From NCBI GenBank assembly GCA_032358255.1, contig JAULBX010028592.1:1-27772 (forward strand): 27,772 nt of DNA, given 5' to 3'. Positions within the stretch are counted from its first letter, which is position 1. Every line of letters begins with the position of its first letter. The DNA is from Heterotrichella gracilis. Its lineage: Eukaryota > Sar > Xanthophyceae > Tribonematales > Xanthonemataceae. Shown here piece by piece: positions 11,087-26,457 of this stretch. The translations under genes were made by a program, and so were the position numbers. A model generated the notes under the pieces. It was not told where the DNA came from. It was given only the letters and a program-made list of their open reading frames with translations, and made no database searches.

Positions 11087-11640
11087 TCAATTACATTCAG
11101 GCTCTATTTCAACATTGCTGCCAACGCCCCAGGAAATGATATCCTGGACGGGAAAATTGGTGAGAATAGTTTCAGATTTTGTAGGGATTGATTTGTATTC
11201 CCACCATTCTGACCCATCATACTCGGCCCTTTCTAGCCACCAATTGTCTCCTACGATGCGAATGGTCCTATCAATGCATGCTGTACCGTAACCAGAATTG
11301 TAATAAATTCGGTAGGCATTGTCCATAAACGCCTCAATTGTTGTGGAAAAGTCACCAAATGCCACAAATCTGACATCAGTCGTTGTCAGTCCGTGTCGCT
11401 CCAACTCTTCGAGTGTCTCCTCTCCCAGGTTTTGCGGATATCAGGAGGCTTGCCACCCAGTATCAACATCACTTCGCGTATCGTCAGCGCAGCGAGCCAC
11501 CTCCACGGCCTGCCGTGAATCCGTCCTCAATATCATTTCTGGGACTGCAGCAAGTGCAGCATGTTCAGCAAAGAGGGCTGTCTGGTTCAGCACTTTACCA
11601 TTGTGAAAAGGATGCATCCATCTGGCAGATCCAAACTATG
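11087..11640 (-). pseudogene. Tandem family copy A (in-frame stop)
   Basis: The minus strand encodes a protein related to the open copy C at 13495-14118. From the TGA at 11087-11089 back to about 11404 it is open and carries the family core GLTTTDVRFVAFGDFS, then IRIVGDNWWLERAEYDGS and WWEYKSIPTKSE, ending in acidic IEPECN. Upstream, the same frame reads DTGWQAS-stop-YPQNLGEETLEELE where copy C reads TEWKASPHLRNLGKETLKELE, so a TGA interrupts it. Similarity to copy B continues 5' of this region to about 11640, so the duplicated unit is longer than the conserved core. It could be a pseudogene or could use a downstream start at 11404 (MERHGL). Function unknown. Confidence 0.65.
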
Positions 11641-12092
11641 TATGATACCTATACTATAGCAATACTATAGTTTAGCTATAGCTAAACCTATGAAGAGCAG
11701 ATATTTTCCAAGCTTAGACTGGCAATTTCCACAAATTTTCCTGCTAATTCCTGCTTTCCGAAGTATGGTCTATAGCAAATTTGGGCAAAGGACACTACAA
11801 AGTTAGCCCTCATCGTCGAGAGACTACTCTGCAGCCCCAACAGATTTTTAAGCAGGTTTGTTCTTTTGTGACTTCGTGATAGAGGCTTTCACGCTGTTAC
11901 AATGTCATTAAAAATTACAGGCAATCTATCTTGACATTTAACAAATTTAAAATAAACAGCAAAATAAAAAACATGATTTGATGTTGACAGAGTTTTGTGG
12001 CATTCACGGCACTGCATTTTTGCAACGTTGAATTTGTGCAGAACGATTTGTCAATGACTTGAAGTGTGCTTTTCCCTCGCATCTGCCTTAGC
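11641..12092. other. AT-rich spacer between copies A and B
   Basis: No gene was found. It contains a perfect 18-bp palindrome (gtttagctatagctaaac) at 11670-11687 beside a run of ctatag units. The last 30 bases or so before copy B (ctcgcatctgccttagctca) match the 3' flank of copy C, so they belong to the duplicated unit. Confidence 0.6.
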
Positions 12093-12560
12093 TCAAGCGT
12101 CAGGCTCTATTTCAATATCCGACGACTCATCGTTCCAGAAAAAGGTATTGTCATCGCCGAATAACTCACTCACAGTCTCAGGTTTTGGAGGAAATGATTT
12201 GTATTCCCACCATTCTGACCCATCATACTCGGCCCTTTCTAACCACCACTATTTCCCCACAATATAGATGTCCCTTTCGATGAACTCTTTACCATAACTA
12301 GGGTTATAATTGATTCGATTGGCAATGCTCATAAACCTCTCAAATGTTGTGGACGAGCTACCAAATCTGACATATCTGACATCATTAGACGTGAGTCTGT
12401 GTTCCTCCAACTCTTCGAGAGTCTCCTTTCCCAGGTATTGCAAACGTTTCACAAATGTGGTGCGTGGGGAGGCTTTCCACTCAGTATCATCATCAGCTTT
12501 CAAACCGCCAGCGCACGGAGCCACCTCCAGTGCCTGTTGTGAATCCATCTTCAAGCTCAT
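12093..12560 (-). pseudogene. Tandem family copy B (in-frame TAG)
   Basis: It starts with an ATG at 12560 (MSLKMDSQQALEVAPCAGG), followed by TEWKAS, LGKETLEELEEHRLTSNDV and ERDIYIVGK, all matching copy C. A TAG then falls where copy C has Asn in GENWWLERAEYDG (GAA AAT there, AAA TAG here). After the stop the same frame stays open through WWLERAEYDGS and WWEYKS to an acidic end (IEIEPDA) and TGA at 12093-12095. One clean stop in otherwise conserved sequence suggests recent inactivation, or a truncated product of about 103 residues. Function unknown. Confidence 0.7.
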
Positions 12561-13494
12561 CACTGGGACTGCAGCAAGGGCAACTATTCAGCAGCTGTTT
12601 GGTTCAGCAATTTGAAAGGTTTTACCGTTCTGAAAAGGGTGGCAGCTCTACCATTTGCAGGTTGTTTTAGCAGCAATGCCACTTTGTGTTGCGGCAACAC
12701 AAAGTCTGACAGTGCCAAAGGATGTCACATGTGCTCTCGAAGGGTAGAGCCAAATGCACAGTCCCACTTGCCCAGAAAGGACTCACCACATGTGTCATAG
12801 AACAGCATTTGGAGACCGGACATCACATTTGAACACCGACAAGTCAGACAACTCTAGAATCTAAATGTGTAATTTGACCCCAAAAACAAATGCTACATGG
12901 GTGCAGCTGAAACACCCATAGGAAAGAATCGGTATGGAAAATTGGATATCTACCTCTAAGAGATTACTATATTTAAAACACCTACATGAATATCACTTCA
13001 GTGCCCAGTGGTGTTTTTCCATCCTCAATTTTTTTTATATCCAATGGCATATTTTTAGCAGGCGTCGACAAAAATGAAAATAAGCCACGCTTGAGTACTG
13101 CATAGATGACAGGCTGCACAAGCGCGTTGAACAGGCGTAAAACGCATAGGTAACCTGTAGCCCAAAAGGCATTCCAACAACTTATTCTTTTTGTGGATAT
13201 GTGATATCTATATCGCCAGTCATATGTGTGTGGTGGCAAGTTTGTCAAACTTTCAGACACGTGTGTACCCAATCAAGAAGAAGCAATAAATTACCTCCAC
13301 GTGCTATGTATATTACCATGGTTACACAATTTGCTGTGCATCCCCACTTACAGCAAAGCTGCCACGGTACCTCTAGAATGGGTAAGGGAGTTTGGAGTAA
13401 CCCAACAAACTTCCGTACCTACTCCAACAACATTGTGTGTTTGACGATCAGAAAATTGTTCAAGTGAAGGCTTTTGCCTCGCACCTGTCTTAGC
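12561..13494. other. Spacer between copies B and C
   Basis: The part next to copy B (to about 12660) is homologous to the 5' flank of copy A. The rest is AT-rich with no clear gene. The minus strand is open for 96 codons at 12982-13272 (ending DIKKIEDGKTPLGTEVIFM), but I recognise nothing in it and its composition does not distinguish it from chance. The 3' flank shared by all copies (cctcgcacctg...) starts at about 13470. Confidence 0.5.
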
Positions 13495-14118
13495 TCAAGC
13501 TTCGGGTTCTATTTCAATACATTCTTCAGACCTACCGCCCCAGTAACCAATGAAATCATGGACAGACAGATCAGAGTCCGCGGTCACGGTTTCAAAATCA
13601 GACTTTGTAGGGATTGACTTGTATTCCCACAATTTTGACCATGGGCCATCATACTCGGCTCTTTCTAGCCACCAATTTTCTCCTACGATATAGATGCCCC
13701 TATCAATGCATTCTGCACCATAACTTGGGTAATAATTGATCCGATTGGCAAAGTTTATAAACTTCTGAAATGTTATGAACCCGTTATAGAACCCGACGAA
13801 TTTGACATCATTAGACGTGAGTCCGTGTTCCTCCAACTCTTTGAGGGTTTCCTTCCCCAGGTTTCGCAAATGTGGGGAGGCTTTCCATTCAGTACTACTG
13901 ATAGTATCAACATCAGTTCGCCTACCATCAGTGCAGGGAACCACCTCCAATGCCTGCTGTGAATCCATCCCCAAGCTCAAAGGTTCAGGTTTCAGCTCCT
14001 TCATCCAGATCCGGCTGTCATCCGAGCCTGCAATAGGCACCGCCCCGCCCCCAGGGTTGGTGGGAGTGGCGGCAGCAGTGGCGGGTGCACGGGCGCTTGG
14101 CTCCAGTGATGCTGCCAT
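13495..14118 (-). CDS. Uncharacterised tandem-family protein, open copy C
   Basis: A single open frame of 207 residues, starting at the ATG at 14118 (MAASLEPSARAPATAAA) in a GCCATGG context; an upstream in-frame ATG at 14169 is possible. Residues 1-50 are low-complexity Ala/Pro/Gly. A conserved body follows: MDSQQALEVVPC, LGKETLKELEEHGLTSNDV, FITFQKFINFANRINY, IDRGIYIVGENWWLERAEYD and WEYKSIPTKSD, ending in an acidic tail (ECIEIEPEA). The paired Trp blocks NWWLERAEYDG and WWEYKS or LWEYKS are the family signature. No signal peptide or membrane segment is visible. I do not recognise the family. It is the only uninterrupted copy of three; copies A and B lack its N-terminal extension. Confidence 0.7.
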   Translation of the reverse strand: MAASLEPSARAPATAAATPTNPGGGAVPIAGSDDSRIWMKELKPEPLSLGMDSQQALEVVPCTDGRRTDVDTISSTEWKASPHLRNLGKETLKELEEHGLTSNDVKFVGFYNGFITFQKFINFANRINYYPSYGAECIDRGIYIVGENWWLERAEYDGPWSKLWEYKSIPTKSDFETVTADSDLSVHDFIGYWGGRSEECIEIEPEA

Positions 14119-14336
14119 GGCCCCTGCATGCGGCGGCAGGGAGATACAACAATGGGGGTTTGCTGGCACAACAGTCTGGCATATTGCCTGGGAAGTAAAA
14201 TGCGCTGCTGAAGGGTTTGGGGTTAATGATTAGGGGTTGGGCTTTAGGCGGTACAATGCAAAGACTGAGCAGTACGAAATGCTGTCGTGCCATGTAGGAG
14301 AGATACAAAGCATGTACATTAGTTGAAGATGTCTGA

Positions 14337-21150: not shown

Positions 21151-22076
21151 TCACTCGTCGGGGTGCACAAAGCACTGCCCTTCGCCAACCACCTCCTTCT
21201 CCAGCTTGCCTTTCAGCTCCAGCCACAGGCGGTTCAGGTGCCCCTTCTCTGCAGGCAGGCTGTCCAACCACGCAGCATCACCAAACACCAGCAGCGAAAA
21301 GTAGTCCCCCGGTGAACCCCTGCCCACAGCAAAGTTGGTCCCCTTCATCCACAGCTTCCCCGTGTCCATCAGAGCAGCACACCGAGCGACTGTCTTTGCG
21401 GGGAGGTAGCCCAGAAGCACCCCGCCTTTGCCGCAGACTTCAATTGCGTTGCGCTCATAGTTCATCCCGATGATGTGGGGGTTGTGGCGCAAGGTTAGGA
21501 CCTGGCCCGAGGACTGAAGCATCTCCATGCCACACGCGTGTCTCCCATTGGGCCAAGTTCTGTATTTTCCCCTGTTGTCGCAGCTGAACTTGTGGCCAAC
21601 CACCTCGCCAAGGGTTGATCCCAGGTAGGATGGGTGCTGCCCAGGGTTGCTGTAATCGTCCTCCAGCCTTTTCTCAGAGGTTTTGCACTTCCTTGGTTCC
21701 TTCTCAACATACTTCAATGGAACTGGCTCCCATTTTTCACAGATATCTCTGTTGCCCTTCGCTGCTGGAGTCATAGGCAGCATGGTAGGTGGGCAATGCC
21801 ACGAGATGGGGGCGATGAGGTGGTTGCCTGCTGCAAGCTGACAAGGTCCACACAACCATCTGGTTACATTTAGGGCAGTTATTAGTGTTGTCGGCACTGA
21901 AACCATACCTTAGCGTGGCATTTGAACCTGGCTAAGCAGTTGGTGTCAGAGCACAAGCACGCCTTAAGTGGGCAGCCAGGCCCTACTAAGAGATAACTGT
22001 TAGAGAAACGCTTCGTTGGTTGATAGCGATACAGACAGAATGGCCTAGCCGATTTGTAGGTCCTGTCACTGTTTGA
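21151..22076 (-). CDS. HIRAN-domain-like protein with Cys-rich upstream exon
   Basis: The 3' exon (21837-21151, TGA) encodes 228 residues. Its centre resembles a HIRAN domain: STLGEVVGHKFSCDN, SSGQVLTLRHNPH, MNYERNAIEVCGKGGVLLGY and LPAKTVARCAALMDTGKLWM follow the family order of strand, 'NP-x-D-x-NAI' and 'vG-x-LP' motifs. HIRAN domains occur in HLTF/Rad5-type repair enzymes, where they bind 3' DNA ends, and in small stand-alone proteins. A phase-0 junction (intron 21838-21908, 71 nt) joins it to a Cys-rich exon ending GCPLKACLCSDTNCLARFKC-HAK, a possible metal-binding cluster. That exon is open back to about 22076 with no ATG, so the true 5' end is unresolved. If the intron is retained, the frame extends to an ATG at 21906. 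The C-terminus has WLDSLPAEKGHLNRLWLELK. Confidence 0.55.
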
Positions 22077-22141: not shown

Positions 22142-25100
22142 ATGCATGTCGCCCCACCGTCGCTTGCGCACAAAAGCGCCGTGTGCATCGTACCACCCAA
22201 GTCGGTGTGGGATGCAATACAACGTATCAGGGTTTTTAAAGACAAGGGCTTTGTGCGGTGGCCTCCACACTTGAACCTTTTGTATCCTTTCTGGGAGGAC
22301 AGAGGCGAAAACCTTGCAACTGCCGCAGAAAGGATCAGGCTAGCTGTGACGGCCGTTCCAGTGTTTGAGGTAATTCATCGAGCTATTGGGTATGTTTGTG
22401 CAGTGCGACGGAAGCCATGACGTCCATTGCCCTGATAGTCGCCCCATGTGCTTGCATTGTACGATGCATGCATGCATATGCATGTGTTAGTTACGCATGC
22501 TTCCAACTGAGTTCACGTTGCGCTGTTCTAGGTCCGCTACCTATATTAACTTGACTGTTTCAAAAGATAAATAGTGCAAAACCTTTGCTTGAGCGCTTCC
22601 CTTCCCATCTTGTCACATATGCATGCATAACATTCATAGCACATATTAGGACGTTTGCCAGGAGACTCTCCCTATTAACCACTTATTATTTTACAGTATC
22701 AACTGCTGCAGGTAAACCTATCGACATTCAGTTTCTTCGACCACGGCAACAGCTGCACCCTATGGTTGCACCCTAGCTCGTCAGGTACCGTACTCCCACT
22801 GCTGGGTTGCTGCCGCCACTGTGCACTACCACCACTGTGCACCAGTACCTCACACTGCTTCACTACATCGCTCCCACCATTGTTGATCCCAGCGCTTTGC
22901 ATTGGCGGTCCCCATAGTTGAAAACCCCAGTACCCAATTGAATACCCCAGTACCCACTTTACTGCCGTTGGGCTGTGATAGTAACGCTCACGCTACGGTT
23001 CGGCAAGGTTCCTCACCTGCTTGTCTTGCCTGCAGAGCTCCTGCGGCTGCAGTCAGCCCTGGTGTCAGCCTTCCCCGACTGCTGCCACCTGTCCAGTGAC
23101 CCTGCCAGGGGGATAACCCAGTTCACCCCGCACCTGTCAGTGGGGCAGTGGCGATCCACCAGGGAGGCGCAACAGGCGGTGCAGGTAAGCAGGGGCTCCA
23201 CTGCACGTGGGCCTTACGTTATTCATTTTACATTGTATATTACTGTGGAGATTTGATCTCCATGTGTCAGAAATCTCGAGATGTGGAAACCGCTCCTACC
23301 CAAGAGGGGCCTCTGGTGATATATAACGAATCCTGTTGTATCTTATTAGGGTTCGCGTATTGGTCGAAGAAACTGAATGTGGATAGGTTTACCTGCAGCA
23401 GTTGATACTGTAAAATAACAAGTGTTTAATAGGGAGAGTCTCCTGGCAAACGTCCCAATATGTGCTAGGAATGTTATGCATGCATATGTAAGATACAACA
23501 GGGTAACCCTGTATCTTATTATCTTATTACAGGGTAACCCTTGTATCTACCTAATAGAGGGGGAACCCATCTTCACTGTAGCCCCAGCTGCCGGCTACAA
23601 AGAGCAGGAGTGTGGAAGAAGGTCATTGCAGAAAGAGCACTTCCACCATGCATATCGTGCATTCAGGTTTGGCCTGCAGGGGTGCATGCTGTATGCAGAT
23701 TGGTAGCCCTTCAATGTGATCACCACTGTCCATGGCCCCCTCACAATTGATGCGAATTATTTGTGCCCCAGGAGCTGCAGGCGTCATGGAGGGCAGTGAA
23801 GTTTACAGTGGGCAGCGTCCAGGTCATCAGCAGGCAGGTGAGGGGATGCACACGTGGCACACCCACACACACCAAGTACCATCCCGCATTGGCACCAACG
23901 GCACCACTACACACACATCGTCACAAGCATACAGGGGTACAATCATGGTACCTGCTGCGTGCTGCATCGGTGTCACATCATGCTCCTGTGGCCAATGCAG
24001 GGCTTTGATGACCCCTTTGCTGTGCGGTGCTCAGTGCCACTTGGCAGCCAACCACAGCCAAGCAGTAGCCAACAGGCGCCAAGCAGTAGCCAGACACAGC
24101 CCAGCAACAGCCAATGGGAGCCCAGCAGCAGCCTCATCAATGTGCCCTACATTGCCAGCGTGGCACCAGATGCTGGCCAAGTAGGGTTTAGGGTGCATCG
24201 ACTTCAGAGATCGGGTTCCTGAATGTATGGTGTTTGGTAGGGTAGAGGGGGCAACGGGGGTAGGTAAGCCAAGGGCCACGTGGGCTGACCTACTTCAGCA
24301 GGACCCCAAATCACGTGGGATCAATAAGTGGTTCAAACAGTGCCAGAAAAGAGCTGCGTGGCGCTGCATGTGCAAGACTGACTGCTAATCTGGCTGTATT
24401 GCTGGAATGCACGTAACTAACCAAGTAACTAACTAACTCAAGAGGTCGGGGGTTCGCATGCAGGGGATGATTCTGGGGAGCACATCATGTTCTGCTGATT
24501 TCAAATACAACATCTGCATTGACATAACCGGCTCATATAATCCCCTATTCTACTAGTTTTTGGATTGCGCGCAGTACAAGGATCACTACATAACATCGCA
24601 TCATGCCGGTCCAACCACAACCTACCCACCGCTCTCCCCTTGCAGGGTTCACCGGCGCTCCAAACACCTGCGCCTTACAACAGCTTTGGCATGGGAGCGC
24701 TGGGCCAAGGGGTGTGGAACTTTGCGTACGGCGCCAACATGAGTGCGCGCAAGTTGGGGGGTGCACGCGGCATCACGCCGATGGAGTCGCAGCCAGGATG
24801 CCTGCCTGGGTGGCGCCTGGCGTTCAACCACAGGTGCCGTCTCTGGGATTAGGGTTTAGGGCTTTCAGGCGTACATGTGCGGGTCTGCAGGCTTGATTTT
24901 GGGGTCTAGGGGTGCTGGGCTGCGGATGTAGTTGAGATTAGGGTTTTGGGGAAGCCAGACGTTCAACTACATCTGCCAGCCCATAGACTGTGGGGATTAT
25001 GGTTACAGTCGCCAGGCGTGTCACTTCCTGTTTCTATGCTTCTTTGTGTCTGGCACTCAGCCTACTGTTCCAATGTTTTTATAGCCCACAGCCAGAGCCG

Positions 25101-26457
25101 TGTGGGGACGCGGATCCTCAGGGATCACAAATAATGATACGCCAGTTAATTTCTTCCTGCAGGGGGGGCATGGGCAACCTGGTACCGCTGGCAGGGGAGG
25201 AAGGGCCAGCAGGGCTACCACCCGCTGTGCACGGAGTGCTGCACCGGCTCACCCCTGCGGCATTCGCTGCCCTGGCAAACATGGAGCATGAGTACATGTG
25301 CGTATGGGGAGAGGGGGCATGGAGGGAGGTAGTGTGTGATAATGGTGTATGGCTATGGCATTTTTGGAGCATGTGGGCTTATACAGATACCACACAGCCC
25401 CGCTGGCCACACATCATGTCTCATATGTACAGCACTCGCCATGTCACCCCCACCCCCCACTCCTCCCCCACCCCCCACTCCTCCCCACCCCTCACACTGT
25501 GCCATGCGACACCCGCAAACATTCCACCCTACCCACGTTTGCAGCCCGACTGAAGTGAATGTACAGACAGCCAGTGGGCAGTGGATGCACGCGGTGGCGT
25601 TCATCTCCCCGCCACAGCGCCTCATCGCCGACCAGCTGCCGCCACCTGGCAGGTGGGAATTAATTGTTTTTCTCCTAGTGGAGATGAAAAACGGTTGTTC
25701 ACCATCGACAAAACGGAATAAATTACAAATACTCACTGGTGGTTTGCACATTGAAGATTTACTGACGGGCCTTTTGCGCCCACAGCTTTGTTGCCCTAAT
25801 AGGGTTTTGCACACACAGGTACCTCACCTTGATCCGCGAGGGCGCTCGTGACTGGCAGCTGGACAGCACCTACCAGCAGTGGCTAGCCAGCGTACCCAAC
25901 GTGGAATCAAGTGCCCGTGGGCCCGAGTACTACTCCTCCCCTGGTGGCGCCGCACTGAATGCCTGGCCCAAGATCCGCACAGGCAGCCAGCAGCAGGGAG
26001 GGAGCAGGGGTAGGGGCAGGTCAGTTGTGATGTGTCTGTCGTTGTGTTTTTGGCAATGTCACGTACAGGTGTGGATGGGCTGTGTCGGTGTATTATGTGC
26101 CGTTAGTGCTGTCTCGACTTGGCCTCATGACCACAATCGCCCGGTGCGGTGAAGATAAATTACCGGGTGAGGCTGAAGGATGAGGCTCAAGGATGGGGCA
26201 CAGAGCATTGCTGTTTGCTGAATCCTAAATCCTGCAATCTCTATCCGCCCTGTGGCGTCAGTACAAAGGGTGTGCTTATTGCCCCTGATGTTGGCACCAG
26301 CAGTGTTCTGGTGGTTGCAACAGCATAACACAGATTATCTTGCCAATGACAGGGATTGTGTGCTTGCCGCAGGGGTGGGAGGGGTGGAGCAAGGGGCGGG
26401 GGTGGCAGGGGCGGGGCAGGGGGCGGGGGTGGCAGAGGGGAGGCACGCAGGGGATGA
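22142..26457 (+). CDS. Fusion protein: 2H phosphoesterase + gamma-glutamylcyclotransferase-like + RGG tail
   Basis: Ten exons: 22142-22369, 22712-22784, 23036-23184, 23772-23837, 24001-24180, 24646-24833, 25163-25297, 25545-25652, 25819-26019 and 26373-26457 (TGA). They sum to 1413 nt (470 residues) with every phase matching. Residues 1-172 are a 2H phosphoesterase (2'-5' RNA ligase superfamily): CIVPPKSVW, first motif H43-L-N45 in WPPHLNLLYPF, then FSFFDHGNSCTLWLHP, second motif H133-L-S135 in FTPHLSVGQW. Residues 183-217 are an SQ/TQ-rich linker. Residues 256-435 resemble GGCT/AIG2-like folds: NFAYGANMS (258-265), GITPMESQPGCLPGWRLAFN, GMGNLVP, VHGVLHRLTPAAFAALANME-HEY, AVAFISPP. The last 35 residues or so are RGG/GGR repeats. 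Members of the 2H fold act on cyclic phosphates or 2'-5' bonds; GGCT-type folds cleave gamma-glutamyl amines. The real substrate is unknown. The first motif has Asn where Ser/Thr is usual. Confidence 0.88.
22615..22743 (+). repeat. Inverted repeat, left arm (129 bp)
   Basis: Pairs with 23361-23489 in inverted orientation. By eye I count 5 mismatches in 129 positions and no indels. The arm covers the end of intron 1, its acceptor and the first 32 nt of exon 2 of the 2H-GGCT gene. Confidence 0.95.
23361..23489 (-). repeat. Inverted repeat, right arm (129 bp)
   Basis: An inverted copy of 22615-22743, lying in intron 3 of the same gene. Its minus strand repeats the exon 2 acceptor region (ttacagtatcaactgctgca). 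The loop of 617 bp holds the rest of exon 2, intron 2 and exon 3. Confidence 0.95.
23490..23550 (+). repeat. Pair of small palindromes abutting the right arm
   Basis: A palindrome acagggtaaccctgt (23498-23512) and a near copy (tacagggtaacccttgta) about 30 bp on, each flanked by gtatct or ttatct units. They begin immediately after the inverted-repeat arm and are not present beside the left arm. Confidence 0.7.
24183..24194 (+). repeat. Telomere motif at the intron 5 donor of the 2H-GGCT gene
   Basis: Intron 5 opens gtagggtttagggtg, so the telomere motif overlaps the donor. Intron 6 has another (ttagggtttaggg, 24849-24862), 15 nt after its donor, and a third nearby at 24938. Confidence 0.8.
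24229..24438 (+). mobile_element. Non-LTR retrotransposon 3' fragment in intron 5
   Basis: The best copy of the element end in the window. The frame reads GKPRATWADLLQQDPKSRGI, NKWFKQCQKRAAWRCMCKTD and C-stop (TAA 24385-24387), then a short UTR and a tail of taactaac units to about 24438. It is near-colinear with the inverted copy at 496-695. It lies in sense orientation inside intron 5 of the 2H-GGCT gene and has no reverse-transcriptase core. Confidence 0.5.
25446..25490 (+). repeat. C-rich ~20-bp tandem repeat in intron 7
   Basis: Units of accccccactcctccccc are repeated two to three times, just upstream of the exon 8 acceptor; they may act as an extended pyrimidine tract. Confidence 0.8.

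Follow-up and report, generated by a model that had tools for sequence, protein, structure and literature searches.

Introduction

Local inverted duplications arising from template switching or from templated insertion at DNA breaks are described in PMC7954356 and PMC11724301 and also, in the text accessible to us, in PMC10622511. In the complex template switches of PMC7954356, as presented in the available part of that paper, direct and inverted scraps surround a reverse-complement copy, and the locus described here resembles these. The foldback insertions formed during break repair, in the corresponding part of PMC11724301, are mostly about 5-34 bp long, versus 129 bp here. A local inverted duplication made by a template switch requires a nearby single-copy sequence of which it is the reverse complement, and such a sequence is present here.

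Complementary sequences in introns can also change splicing, and a review covers the looping out of a splice site by inverted repeats (PMC7404189, accessible text). In the C. elegans zip-2 gene, intron matches of 7 and 13 nt promote both exon skipping and circle formation, neither product arising via the other, and in glr-2 the intron match reaches a 3′ splice site (PMC8330042, in the portion drawn on here), so overlap of a splice site by pairing is not unheard of. Our locus resembles zip-2, as described there, in having complementary stretches on either side of an exon block and in the predicted approach of the splice sites used for skipping; unlike zip-2, one of its arms overlaps the block's own acceptor together with 32 nt of exon, and the match is far longer. 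No study dedicated to green-algal nuclear back-splicing was found by title among the matches listed.

The third related system is the inverted duplication model for the birth of MIRNA genes from their target genes (Allen and colleagues, as summarized in the accessible part of PMC3237417). Our locus is like this model in that part of the gene itself is duplicated in inverted orientation, so that transcription would yield a hairpin, and unlike it in having a 617-nt loop, in lying inside the parent gene and in consisting mostly of intron sequence. In Chlamydomonas, the introns or UTRs of mRNA precursors give rise to 61.1% of high-confidence miRNAs, and splicing of the host intron was unaffected by an intronic miRNA stem-loop (PMC4817775, text available to us).

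Results

An inverted copy of an exon border lies in intron 3 of a 2H gene

The repeat lies in the window, by which we mean the whole 27,772-nt contig analysed, within a gene that we modelled from the sequence and its homologs, all exons being predicted (Table 1). Further modelled exons are at 24001-24180, 24646-24833 and 25163-25297, all modelled exon borders are GT..AG, and the gene appears to extend further downstream. An upstream AG that would add five codons to exon 2 was rejected as its acceptor; nine homolog rows align without those codons.

The translation matches PF13563 (2_5_RNA_ligase2) across residues 18-173 (E 5.2e-34, 117.9 bits against a cut-off of 27), and the assignment of the predicted product as a 2H phosphoesterase-type protein holds. 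The motifs of the 2H superfamily have the form HxT/S, from which motif 1 (HLN) departs; motif 2 is HLS, and its histidine, H133, sits in FTPHLSVGQW. A GGCT/AIG2 domain (PF06094, GGACT) scores below threshold in our partial model (13.4 bits against 22.8), and PF06094 or PF13772 is present in several homologs. Between the 2H and GGCT parts, in-frame 21/42-bp tandem repeats in exon 5 (24044-24133) encode a Q/S-rich linker. The literature search on 2H and GGCT fusions returned nothing useful. Divergent from the 2H gene, on the minus strand, is an open frame of 251 aa (21151-21906) with a sub-threshold match to the HIRAN domain (E 1e-4, 22.5 bits against 24.7).

Named proteins high in the homolog list come from green algae (Cymbomonas, Symbiochloris, Ostreobium, Bryopsis, Micractinium, Chlorella, Myrmecia) and show 47-52% identity, which makes the gene a probable green-algal one; higher identities came from unnamed partial matches alone, up to 58% over 24%. 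In a collection of viral contigs, which may omit this genome's records, 13 pattern matches yielded no confirmed relative of the 2H protein.

Table 1. Positions in the window of the exons, repeat arms and filler discussed in the text
Feature	Positions	Strand	Evidence
Exon 1, from ATG to GAG|gtaatt; 2H motif 1 HLN	22142..22369	+	Gene model, homologs
Left arm (probable source copy)	22615..22743	+	Repeat search, base-by-base comparison, assembly search
Exon 2, 73 nt; acceptor AG ending at 22711, within the left arm	22712..22784	+	Gene model, homologs
Exon 3, 149 nt; 2H motif 2 HLS (H133)	23036..23184	+	Gene model, homologs
Left filler, starting with CCTGTTGTATCTTA	23332..23360	+	Motif searches
Right arm, inverted copy of 22615-22743 in intron 3	23361..23489	-	Repeat search, base-by-base comparison, assembly search
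Right filler: inverted CCTGTTGTATCTTA, two CAGGGTAACCC palindromes, further TATCTTATTA copies	23490..23549	+	Motif searches
Exon 4, acceptor exon of the predicted skipped product	23772..23837	+	Gene model

The two arms of the repeat are 129 nt each, complementary at 124 of 129 positions (96%) and separated by a 617-nt spacer. An earlier prediction from the sequence had placed them exactly here with about five mismatches, and base-by-base comparison finds precisely five in 129 nt, at 22636, 22648, 22679, 22685 and 22723, leaving perfect runs of 21, 11, 30, 5, 37 and 20 bp. The exon 2 acceptor falls within the longest run (22686-22722). By a rough equal-base estimate, about 2e-14 perfect inverted matches of 37 bp would be expected at this sequence length, so we exclude a chance match. 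The anatomy is also as predicted: the left arm comprises the final 97 nt of intron 1 and the initial 32 nt of exon 2, and the right arm is entirely within intron 3 (23185-23771).

In assembly searches the arms match only each other

We searched the 68.5-Mb assembly with the region 22600-23560 and observed matches only here, the arms matching each other; the stretch 23210-23362 likewise matched only itself. Very common words are passed over in these searches, and scoring is limited to the best candidates. A dispersed repeat or transposon family was rejected as the origin of the arms, since these searches found no further copies of them or of their flanks. Rfam at gathering thresholds gave no match in the window.

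To place the repeat against a base rate, we counted inverted pairs elsewhere in the assembly. At ≥40 bp and E 1e-5 there were none in 20 other 10-kb stretches, sampled at set positions on every twentieth contig rather than at random, two of them (L011, L013) in the low-G+C class. With looser settings, 33 loci outside the window yielded 29 inverted pairs; 28 of these measure 24-43 nt and one spans 87 positions. The latter (L041:1998-2079 / 2363-2449, or C238:57183-57264 / 57548-57634) is 86% identical, has a 283-nt gap and is single-copy. The looser scan omitted two duplicates (L031, L037) and the parts of the window (L001-L008); three of its loci (L030, L032, L043) share a contig, on which the first two overlap, and 28 of the 33 (210,128 bases) have a G+C above 0.48, the locus of the 87-position pair falling slightly under that line. 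Local inverted repeats of this kind are uncommon yet not unique in the assembly, the sample being too small for a rate.

The window contains other repeats. The segment 24229-24412 in intron 5, inverted at 512-695, is a dispersed repeat with 92-100% identity over nearly its whole length; it is found in at least 40 places, the window's own included, the best 40 of 730 first-look candidates having been scored. Related pieces occur at 1-74, 730-779, 3155 and 15039. At 11168-13979 three diverged copies of a unit lie in a row, 1.0 and 1.4 kb apart, with 67-88% identity of the repeated blocks, and a 224-aa open frame on the minus strand (13495-14169) has no Pfam match at E 0.001. Elsewhere in the assembly, stretches on C43, C83, C111 and C442 have about 37-39% G+C versus the 51-58% class of the window, two of the four being on contigs of 608 and 874 kb; the assembly therefore possibly holds more than one organism.

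Scrambled filler flanks the right arm

Both sides of the right arm carry filler made of direct and inverted scraps. A 14-bp inverted repeat, CCTGTTGTATCTTA, brackets the arm at 23332-23345 and 23489-23502, the last base of its inverted copy being the right-arm base 23489. TGTATCTTATTA is found on each side of the arm in the same orientation. The assembly has two occurrences of the palindromic filler CAGGGTAACCCT..TATC, both in the window, and no exact match to the filler was found in the viral contigs, a collection that may omit this genome's records. Microhomology at the junctions is weak: ATCTT is common with the source at one side, with a 3-nt offset, and there is none clear at the other.

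The start of exon 2 within the left arm encodes VNLSTFSFFDH, part of a segment that homologs keep. Because it carries this conserved coding sequence as well as the modelled acceptor, the left arm is well supported as the probable source copy. As the right arm contains 97 nt of intron 1, its template was DNA or unspliced RNA rather than mRNA.

Discussion

A probable young local inverted duplication

We consider this locus, with a probability of about three in four, to be a young local inverted duplication of a known mutational kind, originating by template switching during repair or replication and having no selected role. A 129-bp stretch over the border of intron 1 and exon 2 would have been reverse-copied into intron 3 of the same gene, most likely when local templates were switched several times during DNA repair or replication. 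These switches would also account for the jumbled direct and inverted filler flanking the copy, and the arms would have diverged by about 4% since, the copy being without a selected role. As a side effect, a 129-bp hairpin in the unspliced RNA would hide the exon 2 acceptor and loop out exons 2 and 3. We infer the repair mechanism and the neutrality of the copy, as we do all splicing outcomes discussed below.

Several observations weigh against this explanation. The event is a reconstruction, the junction microhomology is weak, the copy is longer than most foldback insertions of PMC11724301, none of the twenty 10-kb stretches has such a repeat, and the 14-bp inverted repeat that surrounds the copy looks like transposon ends as well.

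The original prediction attributed the high identity of the arms to recent origin or to selection for pairing. Youth is the better of these two explanations. In the RNA the mismatched positions would oppose A.G, A.C, C.U, A.C and G.G; as none of the five is a G-U wobble, selection for arm pairing is not supported, although five mismatches are too few to exclude it.

Consequences for folding and splicing

Instead of being a side effect, the hairpin could be a regulated splicing switch, in which pairing of the arms hides the exon 2 acceptor and brings the intron 1 donor near the intron 3 acceptor, giving an in-frame mRNA that lacks exons 2 and 3 and perhaps also a two-exon circle. This isoform is predicted to lose the second 2H histidine and to keep the GGCT part. 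We regard such a switch as unlikely.

The computed folds favour the pairing itself. The arm duplex has an energy of -218 kcal/mol, and the full hairpin belongs to the minimum-energy fold of 22560-23560. For transcripts running from 22142 to ends at 22760-23400, the acceptor region (22672-22714) has a mean unpaired probability of 0.64-0.65; it falls to 0.054 once the transcript end reaches 23440 or beyond, and deleting the right arm brings it back to 0.645. The initial 32 nt of exon 2 are closed off somewhat sooner, with an unpaired probability of 0.039 already at a transcript end of 23400. The duplex is thus predicted to mask the exon 2 acceptor, though not until about 690-730 nt of further transcription, and the proposal that pairing hides this acceptor, for which co-folding had been suggested as a check, is borne out computationally by the fall from 0.65 to 0.05. 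Since the right arm is transcribed about 690-730 nt after the acceptor, ordinary splicing would have a head start, which argues against a switch.

The reading frame would be preserved on skipping, as had been proposed: exons 2 and 3 total 73 + 149 = 222 nt between phase-0 introns 1 and 3, and H133 is in the removed part. Many intron pairs of this gene share a phase (6 of the 15 possible among introns 1-6; 7 of 21 with the seventh modelled donor), so frame preservation is nothing remarkable here and speaks only weakly for design.

For the product, the comparison with homologs argues against a switch. Of 116 homologs, we judged the 91 that extend beyond the exon 2-3 segment on either side, by 20 or more residues before it and 8 or more after it, and dropped the other 25. 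Taking fewer than 45 residues in place of 74 as lacking the segment, we found it absent in none of the 91; motif 1 (HxN, HxS or HxT) is retained in 90 and motif 2 (HxS/T) in 87. The skipped product would lose 74 residues inside a single Pfam domain, and the mismatches between the arms include no wobble pair.

The two-exon circle fares worse than the skipped mRNA. Complementary sequence is present in the introns flanking exons 2 and 3, with one arm also entering exon 2, and circle formation would need that exon's acceptor; this acceptor is buried in the longest perfect run of the duplex, so the circle that had been predicted is disfavoured. Our own criterion, taken from splicing geometry, was that the back-splice acceptor be accessible when the arms pair, and its computed unpaired probability is then 0.05. 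Some exon 1-to-4 skipping is plausible: the splice sites that it would use, the intron 1 donor and the intron 3 acceptor, are both outside the hairpin, and the short zip-2 matches, in the text of PMC8330042 available to us, promote skipping together with circles. Altogether, we would expect the normal mRNA as the main product, with exon 1-to-4 skipping at most minor and little circle.

A possible source of small RNAs

The hairpin might also serve as a source of small RNAs, possibly as a newborn microRNA-type locus, with Dicer-like cleavage of the intronic hairpin yielding a few products that match the gene's own mRNA. The assembly encodes fragments of the machinery, with Piwi-domain fragments on C3 and C388 and a PAZ fragment on C388, and the Piwi and PAZ stretches that we measured (L029, L030) have a G+C like that of the window. 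The intronic or UTR origin of many Chlamydomonas miRNAs in the account of PMC4817775 points the same way, and the inverted duplication model of PMC3237417 makes such a source a fair lead. We nevertheless find this source very unlikely. No two-domain Dicer was found in a six-frame search of the assembly, a search that is weak for split genes, and the RNase III matches are four, namely two in stretches of 38-39% G+C, a lone match on C137 and one fragment below the cut-off. For a microRNA precursor, a loop of 617 nt would be very long. Furthermore, the overlap with the mature mRNA is only 32 nt, and the mismatch at 22723 falls in all 12 of the exonic 21-mers.

Transposon capture, artefact and a combined reading

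The bracketing of the right arm by the 14-bp inverted repeat, and the similar TGTATCTTATTA in direct orientation on both sides of it, could be read as the marks of a Pack-type transposon, with short terminal inverted repeats (CCTGTTGTATCTTA) around a captured and reinserted gene fragment. Pack-type elements and MITEs have terminal repeats common to several genomic copies. Here exact copies of the 14-mer occur only at the two right-arm flanks. For the left-end 20-mer, a search allowing up to 3 mismatches turned up a single other site, which differs at 3 positions; a reversed-pattern control gave the same number. The arms and flanks show no multicopy family in the assembly searches, and the filler is scrambled and not clean. 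Since the right arm holds intron sequence amid scrambled filler, template switching fits better than a transposon, which we judge highly improbable.

Scarcely credible, finally, are an assembly or amplification artefact, which a 27.8 kb contig in a 903-contig assembly with two base-composition classes might suggest but against which stand the five scattered substitutions between the arms and the unique filler, not the usual leavings of read chimeras or foldback artefacts, and the intact modelled exons and splice sites around them; and, to the same slight degree, a combined reading of one mutation in which transcription-speed-dependent masking yields an in-frame isoform with the GGCT part and a broken 2H domain, and small RNAs from that hairpin also target the 32 exonic nt.

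Significance

The duplication has a clear, if unproven, potential to disturb splicing, as the predicted folds indicate. A functional hairpin would make the locus a very recent in-frame splicing switch or a microRNA-type locus observed at its origin. If it is ordinary, the locus would be a clean example of one mutation placing a strong acceptor-masking hairpin in an algal gene, and isolates with and without the copy would form a natural experiment on the weight of pre-mRNA structure in splicing.
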